A stretch of 64,000 nt of DNA. It comes from Opisthocomus hoazin. Lineage: Eukaryota > Chordata > Aves > Opisthocomiformes > Opisthocomidae. Positions 6,126 through 64,000 of the stretch are shown here, in pieces. The notes beneath the pieces are model-generated. The model worked only from the letters and a program-made list of their open reading frames with translations, was not told the origin of the DNA and ran no database searches. How positions within the stretch are numbered: the stretch's first letter is position 1; each line of letters opens with the position of its first letter. The stretch spans positions 1,379,001 through 1,443,000 of the forward strand of contig NC_134442.1 in assembly GCF_030867145.1 (NCBI RefSeq), in the 5' to 3' direction. A program made the translations under genes and the position numbers.

Positions 6126-6195
6126 TCCCCACAGCCTGTCCGACCTTCTTCTTGAGAGCCATTCCACATCCTTTTCTGTGTGGCCCCGCTCTGTA
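6126..6195 (-). mobile_element. CR1 5' remnant at the start of each unit
   Basis: On the minus strand this piece encodes a lysine-rich stretch (GMALKKKVGQAVGIIERAL) that reads on into CR1 sequence left of 6126. I infer that it is the 5' part of the flanking CR1, captured by the duplication. The same piece opens every later unit, where the CR1 body is absent. Its upstream limit is not sharp and it may run to about 6270. Confidence 0.5.
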
Positions 6196-6584
6196 CCTGC
6201 TAGAGGGGTGGGTCTAGCGGCCTGGCTGCTGGCGATGGCAGAAGGGAACACAGGTCATAGGGACCCCGCAGTTGGAAAGACCGAGTGTCTCGGGCCAGCT
6301 CCTGGTGGGAGCGCTGTGTGCGTGCGCAGTGCACTAGCGAACCTGAAGCTGGCCTAGCTCTCGAGCAAGAGGACAGAGACCTTTTCAGTCCCGTGGGTGG
6401 CATGTGGCTGCAGCCTACCTGACTGATCAGCCCCAGCATTCACAGACCTTACAAGAGGACCAGGCCTGCCAACCACCGGCCACATCTCCACCTGCTGGAG
6501 TCAGGAAGGACTTGGAGGTGCTTGACCACGCATACCCCGAGCTGCTTCCCCCTAGGCACGTCCCCTCTGCACTACCTGTTTGGG

Positions 6585-6720
6585 GGCTGTGGTGATTAGG
6601 GACAGGGCTCAGCCAAACAAGCAAAGCTGTCTCTGCCAGAGTGCTCTCCCCAGAATGACCCCAGCTCTTCCTTCACATATTGCTGAAGTGTGCCCACCTC
6701 TCACACCATTCCCTCTTAAC
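6585..6720 (-). repeat. LTR-like repeat fragment, minus strand (inverted partner of 11068-11467)
   Basis: Read on the minus strand it begins GTTAAGAGGGAATGGTGTG and matches 11068-11164 at roughly 90%. It then jumps to match 11431-11467, so it lacks about 267 bp present in the other copy. A purine run followed by TG resembles a polypurine tract next to an LTR start, which is why I suspect an old LTR retroelement. The class is not determined. It recurs in every unit at the same offset. Confidence 0.5.
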
Positions 6721-7520
6721 CACCTGCAAAAATCTGCTGCTGGCATCACAGAGTATCCACAGAAGACAAGTGACGTTCTCCAAGGCCACCTTCTGCCTGC
6801 TTTAAGCAGATATCGGGCACCACCTTCAGGTCAATTTTTGAAAACCAAAGCAGCGTGGAGTGCGGTTTGTTTGGGGACGTCTTCTAGTGCCTATGAAGCC
6901 ATGCTGCTTCCAATTGCACGTCTGTGGCCACGCATAGCAGGCAGTGCGACTGCCCGCACCAGTGTTGGCCCAGAAGAGCAATGTAGCTGGTAGACAGCAA
7001 GGACACGGAGCCTGTCAGAGGGCGTTGCGGTGGCAGACAGAGCCAGCGTGGAGCGTGCTCCATCTGTGTTTCGCTGTGCTTTGTGCAGGACAGGATGGCA
7101 GTGCTTGGCTATACTTGGTTGATTTGGCTTGCACATCCCTGCTTGCCTGCCGCGGCTGTAAGCAGATTGGCTCTTCAGCCCCCAACCAGGTGCCTACTGC
7201 CTGTAGTAGTTCCGTTCTGCGGTGTCAGTTTCTTTGGGAAGGACCTGGTGGCAAGTGGCTGCGCAGAGCGGGGTGGCAGTGAACTTCCCAAAGAGGCTAT
7301 GGTGCCACACTTGGTTTTCCCGGCTAGCTGTTAGCAGGCAGCACTGGGAGGCAGGCGCTGCTGCCTGCCACGAGGTCTGCAGAGCCTCGTCCCGCAAGCA
7401 GAGCATTCAGCGGGGGTCTGCTGGGGGTGTCCGAGCCCAGCTTCTGCCTCCCCTCCTACTCGGAACCCTCCATGTTGCCCGCCCCCCCCTAGAATCCACA
7501 GTGCCCAGCACCCGGAACCA
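6721..7520 (+). other. Unit segment upstream of the acrosin promoter, no gene recognised
   Basis: This holds the interval (6882-6995) that is duplicated at window positions 1-114. It also contains a 10-bp inverted repeat, CTTTGGGAAG at 7232-7241 with CTTCCCAAAG at 7284-7293. Open frames of up to 227 codons run through it into acrosin exon 1 and intron 1, but in a different frame and without a recognisable domain. It may hold 5' UTR exons or regulatory DNA. Confidence 0.45.
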
Positions 7521-7651
7521 GCCACTCTGTGACATCAGCCACGGGGCCAAGGGTTCCCTGGGCAACGGGACTGCTGCAGGCACTACGTCGGCTGCTGCAC
7601 TGCTGGCCACCAGCTCTCGCTTCTTGCAGCTGCCACGTGCCGCTGGCAGCC
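7521..7651 (+). promoter_or_regulatory. Probable proximal promoter of the acrosin gene
   Basis: A GC-rich region without a TATA box, just upstream of the start codon. It contains TGACATCA (7530-7537), one base from the CRE palindrome used by CREM in spermatids. It also contains GTTCCCTGGGCAAC (7553-7566), which resembles an RFX X-box with a good right half-site and an imperfect left one. The right half GGCAAC is present only in copy 1; copies 2-11 have GGCAGC. A pyrimidine-rich TTCTTGCAG (7621-7629) could be a 5' UTR splice acceptor. Equivalents lie 5.33 kb apart in all units. Factor assignment is inference from motif likeness. Confidence 0.45.
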
Positions 7652-60980: not shown

Positions 60981-63462
60981 ATGAATTTTCTCCCCGTCCT
61001 GGTCCTGCTGGCCGTGTGCTGGCCGGCGTACGGCATGTGGGACAACTGTGGGTAAGTGGCCCGAGGCTCTGGGAGGGAGCTGGGGCAGCCCTTGTGGGCT
61101 TCACTGGCGGGTGCTCGCTTTTCCCCCTGGCCACACCAAAGCTTCCCAAACGCCATGTGGGAGCCTCAGTTCCTTGCCAGCAGCCAGGCCGCTGGCACAA
61201 CTCGCCTACGGGGCTCAAGCACAAACAGGGGTAGATGGACGCATGCCCCACAGGGTTCCGCGGTCCTGCTGTCCATGCAGCGCCTGGTGGGGGGGAAGGG
61301 GGCTGACCTGCAGCCTCAACAGCAGCAAGCCACCGAGCAGGACATTCATCAGTTTCTGCTTACAGAGGGACCTGCGGGCACCGGCCCATGGATTCTTACT
61401 ACGGCATGTCACGCGTCGTGGGTGGCACCGATGCCCAGCTAGGGGCCTGGCCCTGGATCGTCAGCATCCAGAAGCCCATCATAGGAGGCATAGCGCATGT
61501 CTGCGGAGGGTCGCTCATCAGCCCACAGTGGGTGCTGACAGCAGCCCACTGCTTCATCACGCCCGGGTAAGGAGGACCAGGGAACAGCCCCACAGCACTA
61601 GCACGTGCCCGCTCCACAGCAGCACGTGCTAGCGCCATCTCGCTTCCTTGCAGCACGCCCAGTGCCTGGGCACTGCCAAGCCCAGCTGAGACACTGCTCG
61701 TGAGAGGGCTGGGCTCACGCCACGGCTTCCTAGCAGCCTCCCGCCCGACACTCCTTGTGCCCAAGGCGTGCTAGGGCAGTCGCACCCTCCGTAGCGCTGC
61801 CTTCCTCTCTGCCCTGTGCAGCAGAAGGCAGGCAACTGCTGGGCTGCTTGCAGCACGTGGCTGCGCTCCCTCTGACCCCTCTCTCCACCTGCCTTGCAGG
61901 CACATCACCATGTGGCACGTGGTGATCGGGGCCAGCCACTTGACTCAGCTGGGCCCTGAGACCCAAGTGCACACTATTAAGCGGCTACTGGTTCACGAGC
62001 ACTACAACAACATCACGCAGAGGAACGACATTGCCTTGCTGGAATTGGACCAGCCTGTCCTGTGCGGCTACTACGTGCAGCTTGCCTGTGTGCCCGACGC
62101 CTGGCTGAGAGTGTCGCAGCTGAGAAGCTGCTACGTCAGTGGCTGGGGTTCCACGACTGCAAGAGGTGAGTTCCCAAAAGGGAGTGGTGTCCTGAGCGCA
62201 GGCTGGGCACACTGGGGAGGCGGGGTGGGCTTCCTGACAGCAGAGGCGAAAGCCAGAGTCGGGCTGCGGGGTGCATGCCGATGGAGAGGTGGGCCTGGCC
62301 CATTACCCCAAGCAAGACAGAAGGGAGACAGCAGCGGCACAGTGCCTCTGGAGACGCAAAGCCCAGCCCTAGGGCAGGGCTTCAGCCAGACACCGGGGGG
62401 GTGGGGGGGAGGAGAGGAGAACTGGCAGCGAGCTGCTGGCTGTTAACTCCTTTCTGTGCTGACAGCTGGGGGACCAAGTTATGTCCTGCAGGAGGCCAAG
62501 GTCCGCCTCATCGATATCAAGCTCTGCAACAGCAGCCGCTGGTACGGAGGGGCCATCCACAGCCACAACTTGTGTGCTGGCTATCCGCAGGGCGGCATCG
62601 ACACCTGCCAGGTAGGAGCGTGCTACAAGTCCACCCCCAACAGCACAGGCAGCCCTGTGGCAACCGCCCAAACCTGCCCCAGCGCGTGCTTTGCCTGGCA
62701 AGTCAGCCTGCCACTGCTGGGTCCCCTCCACTCTTGGGGTTCACCTCCCCTTGCCCAGATGCAGGTCCTTGCCCAGGGCCGCCCTTGTCCCAGAGGCCTG
62801 GCTCTCTGCCCACAAAGCCCATCTAGTGCTCTGGGCAGCCCACAGCTCCAGAGCCCAGTCCTGCAACATCCGCCTTCCACACATCCAGGATCACTGTGCA
62901 AAGAGGACAGAGAGAGAGCCCTGCCTGACTGGCCCACCACCCCCTGCCAGACAAGCTTCTGTAGGCTCCAGCACCTGAGCAGAGCCTTTGTGTGCAGTCA
63001 GGACAGCTCTGGCAGCTGCTGCGGGAGAGAAGGAGCCAGCCAGAGTGCTGACCGGGGCCACCCAACACCACCTTAACCCTCTCTCCTCCGCTGCAGGGTG
63101 ACAGCGGTGGTCCTCTGGTCTGCAAAGATAACACCAACGACTACTTCTGGCTTGTTGGAGTGACCAGCTGGGGGAGAGGCTGTGCCAGACCAAACCAGCC
63201 TGGAGTCTACACCTCCACGCAGCACTTCTACGACTGGATCCTGCTACAGATGGGACTGCGCTCAGCAAGAAGAGATAGTCCAACAGCACAGCCATGGAGT
63301 CATTTTCTCTCCACCTCAAGCCCCTCTCAGAGGCCAAGGCCAACACCAGCACCAACACAGTCGGGCAGCATTAGCTCCTGTCCATTTCCACGCCAGAAGC
63401 TGGTGGAATTCTTTACTCTTCTGAAGGAGCTCCTGCAGTTCCTCAGGGGAAAAAAGGCTTGA
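60981..63462 (+). CDS. ACR: Acrosin, copy 11 (Arg115 to His)
   Basis: Exons 60981-61051, 61366-61566, 61900-62165, 62466-62611 and 63097-63462. It is the only copy whose predicted protein differs: CGC to CAC at 61970-61972 changes Arg115 to His (QVHTIKRLL), a CpG-type transition. The residue lies 30 positions after the catalytic histidine in a basic stretch, not in the catalytic triad, so activity is probably kept. Basic surface residues of acrosin are known in mammals to bind zona glycans, so a binding effect is conceivable but unshown. Confidence 0.93.
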
Positions 63463-63590
63463 GGAGCAGGATCAACAGGAACCAGCGCAGGCTGCACTGG
63501 ACCATGATCATTTCCTTCTGGGGCAATGCCTGCTGCTCCAAAGGCAGCCTCAGCATCAAAGGCCTGCTCTGTGCTGCCCGCTCTCCTCCC

Positions 63591-63994
63591 TGTGGAGGAT
63601 GAAGCATTAAAGGACTGGGGACATGTGAGCAATCCAGCATTTCTCTAGAAGGCCATGAAGCCTTAGCCTAAGGCCGCAGAGCCTTAGCATAAGGCCGCAA
63701 GAGCATCCAGAGGACAAACTGCGGTTGGAATGAGGAAGTAAGAATGCAGAGACAAACAACTCCCAGATGCCGAAGAGGAACTTGCCGCCTGCAAGAAGGC
63801 CACGAGCACTGCGCGTGAGCTAGTGACGCACACCAATCATAATCGAGTTACTATGTGAGTTAAATTGATTATCACCAATGGGGAATCGCCGCGTATGTAG
63901 TGGGGAATATAAAAGTGAGCTATCTGAGGCTAATAAACGGCTTGTACGTGATCACATTGATCATCGTGTCGAGTCCGGTTCTTCCTCCGCAACA
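63591..63994 (+). mobile_element. Probable solo LTR, unit 11
   Basis: Same element and spacing to the acrosin stop codon as in unit 1. The window ends 6 bp after its right end, just covering the CTTCCC flank. Confidence 0.6.
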
Positions 63995-64000
63995 CTTCCC

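Follow-up and report, generated by a model that had tools for sequence, protein, structure and literature searches.

Several vertebrates are known to carry more than one gene for the sperm protease acrosin (ACR). Here, we describe an array of at least 11 acrosin genes lying head to tail in a 64-kb stretch of the genome of the hoatzin, Opisthocomus hoazin (NCBI RefSeq assembly GCF_030867145.1, contig NC_134442.1, positions 1,379,001 to 1,443,000 of the forward strand; hereafter the window). No other living species belongs to the order of the hoatzin. Among birds, the zebra finch possesses an ACR-like family of seven non-clustered genes, one of which has all three catalytic residues mutated, and the authors credit reproductive pressure for this expansion (PMC2865498, 2010; here and below, reference is made to the passages on acrosin in the cited reports). 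The hoatzin shares with the zebra finch a lineage-specific acrosin expansion, but its genes, at least 11 in number, are clustered, near-identical and all intact, whereas the seven genes of the zebra finch are dispersed. Xenopus has 14 ACR copies (PMC3434135, 2012), which makes it another vertebrate with more than ten; it is an amphibian, however, and the passage concerned does not describe a homogenised tandem array. Chicken sperm contain two active proteases of the same family, acrosin and acrosin-like, but these derive from two distinct genes and not from an array; SPINK2 acts as their inhibitor, and low-fertility males have an excess of acrosin (PMC6767445). Salamander sperm are described as low in acrosin (PMC8904931). 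Two other reports (PMC4646688, PMC7058181) each contain a single mention of acrosin that does not bear on the array. Finally, a study on assembly errors judged a duplication of ACR and ACR-like to be true on the basis of read evidence, which is likewise a real duplication; the passage does not say in which species it occurs, how many copies there are or how these are arranged (PMC9516828).

A homogenised acrosin array with all genes intact was not found among the open-licence papers listed in the literature searches, and neither was a paper treating acrosin together with the hoatzin. To our knowledge, there is no described case in which acrosin was multiplied without change. Acrosin expansion is known, as the examples above and 13 large clusters of bird sequences (see below) illustrate; what is new is the uniform, all-intact array. 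The original prediction for this DNA, made by a model from the letters alone, did not recall an acrosin array of this size, and it is in the homogenised arrangement, not in the expansion itself, that this claim to novelty stands. In its architecture, the locus resembles tandem multigene families under concerted evolution, e.g. ribosomal DNA or ampliconic testis genes, which likewise show near-identical tandem units, a diverged edge and exchange between units; it differs from them in that the gene is a sperm protease, present once per 5.33-kb unit.

A head-to-tail array of intact genes

Recurrence of 20-mers in the window, which is free of N, peaks at offsets of 5332 and 5335 bp and at their multiples. 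Unit boundaries were set by a unit-start motif that occurs 11 times. Its first occurrence is at 6128, 2 bp downstream of the point at which the shared sequence starts (6126), and the others coincide with the starts of units 2–11 (Table 1). The 11 units lie head to tail, the intact ones measuring 5331–5335 bp and unit 11 being cut by the window edge. Any two aligned units differ at between 2 and 24 sites, and indels between them are few, comprising 1 base in unit 1, 3 bases common to units 6–9 and 3 bases absent from unit 11. Multi-kilobase repeats of more than 99.5% identity are far above chance, and the ~5.33-kb period stems neither from chance nor from short tandem repetition, as the k-mer offsets and the unit alignment show. 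The array continues past the right window edge, making 11 the minimum copy number.

All 11 genes are complete, each comprising five exons with 349 codons plus stop. Splice sites are canonical throughout (AG in 44/44 acceptors, GT in 44/44 donors), and none of the genes has suffered a stop, a frameshift, a splice loss or a coding indel. Exon 1 encodes the signal peptide and the light chain with the sequence CGGTC (C23 and C27). In the protein of unit 5, which served as reference, the activation site lies between R40 and V41 (R40 followed by VVGG), the catalytic triad consists of H85, D134 and S231, the S1 pocket carries D225, and the heavy-chain cysteines are C146 and C154. Ten of the encoded proteins are identical and that of unit 11 differs by R115H alone; activation site and triad are thus intact in all 11. 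Among 100 homologues listed, residue 115 is R in 95, H in four and C in one. The CRE (cAMP response element)-like stretch TGACATCA located ~120 bp upstream of the ATG is a candidate promoter element.

The original prediction had proposed a tandem amplification of five-exon genes with activation site, catalytic triad and canonical splice sites, spaced by 5.33 kb and running off the right edge, and the unit motif positions, k-mer offsets and gene structures bear this out. It had also placed the start of the array at 6126. The shared sequence does begin there, but a unit fragment at 1–114 was overlooked, and array sequence is therefore not confined to the right of this position.

Table 1. Coordinates of the array units, the acrosin genes and flanking features, counted from the first nucleotide of the window
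Feature	Start	End	Strand	Remarks
Orphan unit fragment	1	114	+	114 bp; matches 6882-6995 of unit 1 at 100% identity, same orientation
CR1-like non-LTR retrotransposon	3144	6127	-	reverse-transcriptase and endonuclease pieces (Pfam); outer limit ~3144 by eye
Array unit 1	6126	11458	+	5331 bp from 6128
Array unit 2	11459	16790	+	5332 bp
Array unit 3	16791	22122	+	5332 bp
Array unit 4	22123	27454	+	5332 bp
Array unit 5	27455	32786	+	5332 bp
Array unit 6	32787	38121	+	5335 bp
Array unit 7	38122	43456	+	5335 bp; 2 differences to unit 6
Array unit 8	43457	48791	+	5335 bp
Array unit 9	48792	54126	+	5335 bp
Array unit 10	54127	59458	+	5332 bp
Array unit 11	59459	64000	+	4542 bp; cut by window edge, gene complete
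CRE-like stretch	7525	7544	+	20 bp with TGACATCA; identical in 11/11 units
Acrosin gene 1	7652	10133	+	exons 7652-7722, 8037-8237, 8571-8836, 9137-9282, 9768-10133
Codons of gene 1			+	placed by hand: activation Arg 8083-8085, His 8218-8220, Asp 8698-8700, Ser 9774-9776
Polyadenylation-like signal	10277	10282	+	ATTAAA; 18-bp context identical in 11/11 units; putative function
Acrosin gene 2	12984	15465	+	5 exons, 349 aa
Acrosin gene 3	18316	20797	+	5 exons, 349 aa
Acrosin gene 4	23648	26129	+	5 exons, 349 aa
Acrosin gene 5	28980	31461	+	5 exons, 349 aa; comparison reference
Acrosin gene 6	34312	36796	+	5 exons, 349 aa; intron 3 with 3-bp insertion, common to genes 6-9
Acrosin gene 7	39647	42131	+	5 exons, 349 aa
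Acrosin gene 8	44982	47466	+	5 exons, 349 aa
Acrosin gene 9	50317	52801	+	5 exons, 349 aa
Acrosin gene 10	55652	58133	+	5 exons, 349 aa
Acrosin gene 11	60981	63462	+	5 exons, 349 aa; sole protein variant, R115H

Identity of the encoded protease

The light chain of acrosin is short and contains two cysteines (CxxxC); it is cut after an Arg that precedes VVGG or IIGG and is paired with two cysteines of the heavy chain; the mammalian ACR gene has five coding exons. The sequences of the array show the CxxxC light chain, the cleavage site and the heavy-chain cysteines, with the disulfides being predicted, and all 11 genes exhibit the five coding exons and the C-terminal tail typical of acrosin. Pfam returned a single family, Trypsin (1.1e-65), with 73 residues of tail following the domain. 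Among solved structures (best 60 of 560 matched sequences), the beta-acrosins of ram (1.8e-76) and boar (9.5e-72) lead (1fiw, 1fiz), followed by plasma kallikrein (1.2e-57), and the cysteine pair C146/C154 aligns with both acrosins. A search of the protein database (8000 candidates scored; best 120 of 7934 matches; clusters at 90% identity) placed an acrosin-like protein of O. hoazin at rank 2 among the matches listed, with 100% identity over 93% of the query. The top-scoring match was a 547-residue falcon protein with 70% identity; apart from the hoatzin protein, identity was at most 81% in the 119 remaining of the 120 matches listed, and 78% for the best other cluster spanning the whole query. 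A hand count of the names given by the sources yields acrosin or acrosin-like for 108 of the 120 homologues listed, the remainder being unnamed products or S1-domain proteins. NCBIfam, which holds prokaryote models, gave no match for two acrosins.

These data support the identification of the array genes as acrosin, in line with the original prediction. That Pfam yields the general trypsin family only would also fit some other trypsin-like protease that acts in a different tissue. However, this is extremely unlikely: an E-value gap of 14 to 19 orders of magnitude lies between the two acrosin structures and the protein ranked next, on which basis a different S1A protease was rejected, and both the cysteine pattern of the two chains and the naming of the homologues speak for acrosin. 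The N-terminus of the hoatzin database protein (P0002; MHSR) disagrees with exon 1 of the genes in the window. An alternative first exon was sought in the window, and no stretch that matches MHSR and has a GT donor was found; an error in the gene model of the public record is therefore possible.

An array probably homogenised in its interior

Variation between units was analysed for the gap-free sites of alignment columns 1–4548. All of the 43 variable sites are biallelic, 28 of them being transitions, and each of the 11 units represents a distinct haplotype. The rarer state occurs in at least two units at 18 of the 43 sites, and 47 of the 153 informative pairs fail the four-gamete test, which indicates exchange between units or repeated mutation. 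Variants are shuffled between units, and the two leftmost units are the most diverged: the mean difference amounts to 18.3 between units 1–2 and 3–11 as compared to 8.5 within units 3–11, and singletons number 7, 5 and 5 in units 1, 2 and 3 and 0–3 in each other unit. Distance between units rises with their separation (Mantel r 0.41, a value reached in 38 of 5000 permutations). In a quick tree of 83 rows, in which 24 of the 80 inner branches have less than 80% support and deep forks are weakly supported, two of the eleven copies of the window formed one set with P0002 at 100% support, that is, copies within the species are closer to each other than to their orthologues. A diverged edge, on the left side of the array, and recombinant variant patterns, both hallmarks of concerted evolution, are present.

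Bird mutation rates amount to a few 1e-9 per site and year. Accordingly, the largest difference between units, 24/5331, corresponds to an order of a million years since their common ancestry, an age that fits recent amplification and ongoing homogenisation alike.

The best reading of these patterns is a tandem array homogenised in its interior, unlike what would be expected from an assembler loop or from raw read error. Sequencing noise was judged an unlikely cause of the unit differences, which include no coding indels and are mostly transitions, with many biallelic variants being shared. It could still be argued that the assembly inflates the copy number, e.g. by an assembler loop or by stringing together the two parental arrays; the latter, like a wrong copy number, would be compatible with the variation described here. 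Between units 6 and 7 there are just 2 differences in 5335 sites, and the exact copy number is therefore hard to assemble; moreover, false duplications are documented in bird assemblies (PMC9516828). Nevertheless, we regard an artefact as improbable in view of the 11 distinct haplotypes, the biallelic and often shared variants, the higher divergence towards the left edge and the absence of both coding indels and N. In addition, the study on assembly errors itself accepts one ACR duplication as true, and the hoatzin cluster in the protein database comprises 27 member sequences, a number that is not a copy count, because the nature of the members (gene, isoform or assembly) is not given.

Possible purifying selection and a proposed role of acrosin dose

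Five coding sites vary between the units, at CDS positions 141, 344, 468, 741 and 1026, four of them synonymously and one nonsynonymously. With 245 synonymous and 802 nonsynonymous sites, the probability of at most one nonsynonymous change in five is P 0.012. This suggests purifying selection on the acrosin copies, the signal being suggestive only because the units are not independent. The near-uniformity of the proteins (10/11 identical) and the predominance of synonymous changes fit the idea of one enzyme that was multiplied rather than diversified.

Taken as a whole, the locus is probably a genuine tandem array that is homogenised by exchange and kept uniform by purifying selection, with dose as the proposed target of selection. 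Unequal crossing-over would have multiplied a 5.33-kb unit in which a single gene is accompanied by an upstream region and a polyadenylation-like signal of its own. Ongoing unequal exchange or gene conversion would keep the interior units near-identical while edge units drift, and purifying selection would hold the protein constant. Each copy codes for the same secreted, two-chain, trypsin-like zymogen. Many copies may be transcribed in spermatids, which could provide a larger proacrosin store in the acrosome and a higher acrosin load per sperm. Once activated, it might enhance binding or digestion at the inner perivitelline layer, and acrosin dose would be what selection favours. Acrosin is assumed to act at this layer (PMC6767445), it supports binding of sperm to the quail egg coat, and bird egg coats are described as no block to polyspermy, some of which is needed (PMC8316823). 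As put forward in the original prediction, the array may raise the sperm protease dose, perhaps under sperm competition or sperm–egg conflict.

Several points weigh against this explanation. Only one edge of the array is in view. Variability of coding sites is not significantly lower than that of noncoding sites (5/1049 versus 38/3499, P 0.10), and the selection signal rests on just five coding variants in non-independent units. Furthermore, chicken males of low fertility have too much acrosin, and SPINK2 inhibits the acrosins of chicken (PMC6767445), which is why more acrosin is not an advantage in itself. These findings imply that excess acrosin is costly, and a matching level of inhibitor is therefore predicted.

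The main rival explanation is neutral inflation of copy number, in which a recombination-prone unit expands and homogenises without any dose benefit, most copies being silent or redundant. In its favour, the lower coding variability is a non-significant trend; in addition, the units are so similar that most copies may be too young for decay, and an inverted repeat flanking the gene in unit 1 (see below) could favour rearrangement. On the other hand, none of the 11 genes has decayed, synonymous changes prevail in the coding sequence, and the CRE-like and polyadenylation-like stretches examined are identical in 11/11 units. We therefore consider neutral inflation unlikely, albeit worth serious attention, and favour the selected, exchange-homogenised array. 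If the latter is real and expressed, one sperm enzyme was multiplied unchanged, and the selected trait would be protease dose rather than protein divergence.

Probable acrosin expansion in other birds

Clusters with at least 20 member sequences account for 13 of the 120 listed, and all 13 are from birds, including eagles, owls, falcons, duck and manakin; such database clusters may mix species, isoforms and assemblies. The hoatzin fills one row of the 120, and there is hence no second, divergent hoatzin acrosin among the matches listed. In the quick tree, the hoatzin rows form a tight single set, the acrosins of potoo, owls and kagu appear in more than one place, and those of falcons form two distinct pairs. 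Judging from these database sequences, recurrent acrosin expansion across birds is likely. Among the 100 listed homologues of 300–420 residues, the full triad is missing in seven (in one of them by a gap) and His replaces the activation Arg in 13, which suggests decayed or non-peptidase acrosins in several lineages, or poor gene models.

Tentatively, and with considerable reservation, one may go further and propose that birds build acrosin arrays repeatedly and independently, that of the hoatzin being a uniform dosage device, while copies in other lineages diverge and partly lose catalysis. If the array is indeed a dosage device, acrosin copy number would count among the evolving traits of bird fertilisation, with Kazal inhibitors such as SPINK2 as a counterweight. 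Birds need some polyspermy (PMC8316823), and acrosin excess goes along with low fertility in chicken (PMC6767445); copy number can therefore be measured against inhibitor level, sperm numbers in the egg coat and mating system. Apart from that, the array is well suited as a test of how gene arrays are assembled from long reads and of the many bird database records labelled 'acrosin-like'.

The left flank and further features of the window

The match of the orphan fragment at 1–114 to unit 1 stops sharply, the breakpoint being read directly. It represents either a partial unit or an additional one at the left window edge. The fragment and unit 1 are set ~6 kb apart by a gap that includes the CR1-like retrotransposon. 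About 3 kb of the gap following the fragment is without the repeats of the array and partly ATACA-rich, with a degenerate ATACA-rich repeat of ~1 kb at 1560–2560. Pfam analysis of three stop-to-stop frames of the retrotransposon, which we take to be of the CR1 type, returned RVT_1 (6.1e-32), Exo_endo_phos_2 (6.8e-07) and Exo_endo_phos (7.7e-07). As array sequence flanks the retrotransposon block on both sides, the left limit of the array may be outside the window. A neighbouring gene was not recognised in the 64 kb. A long terminal repeat (LTR) after each gene was considered for 10300–10670 (TATAAA at 10579, AATAAA at 10603) and is not claimed, since a search for a target-site duplication with TG...CA ends gave no result.

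The retrotransposon adjoins unit 1 at 6126–6130, and at this junction a 25-nt stretch occurs twice at a spacing of 34 nt (6072–6130). Unit 1, the unit searched for this feature and near-identical to the others, contains an imperfect inverted repeat (6594–6720 versus 11068–11163 and 11425–11458), whose arms, judged from the unit spacing, would sit ~470 bp apart across unit junctions.

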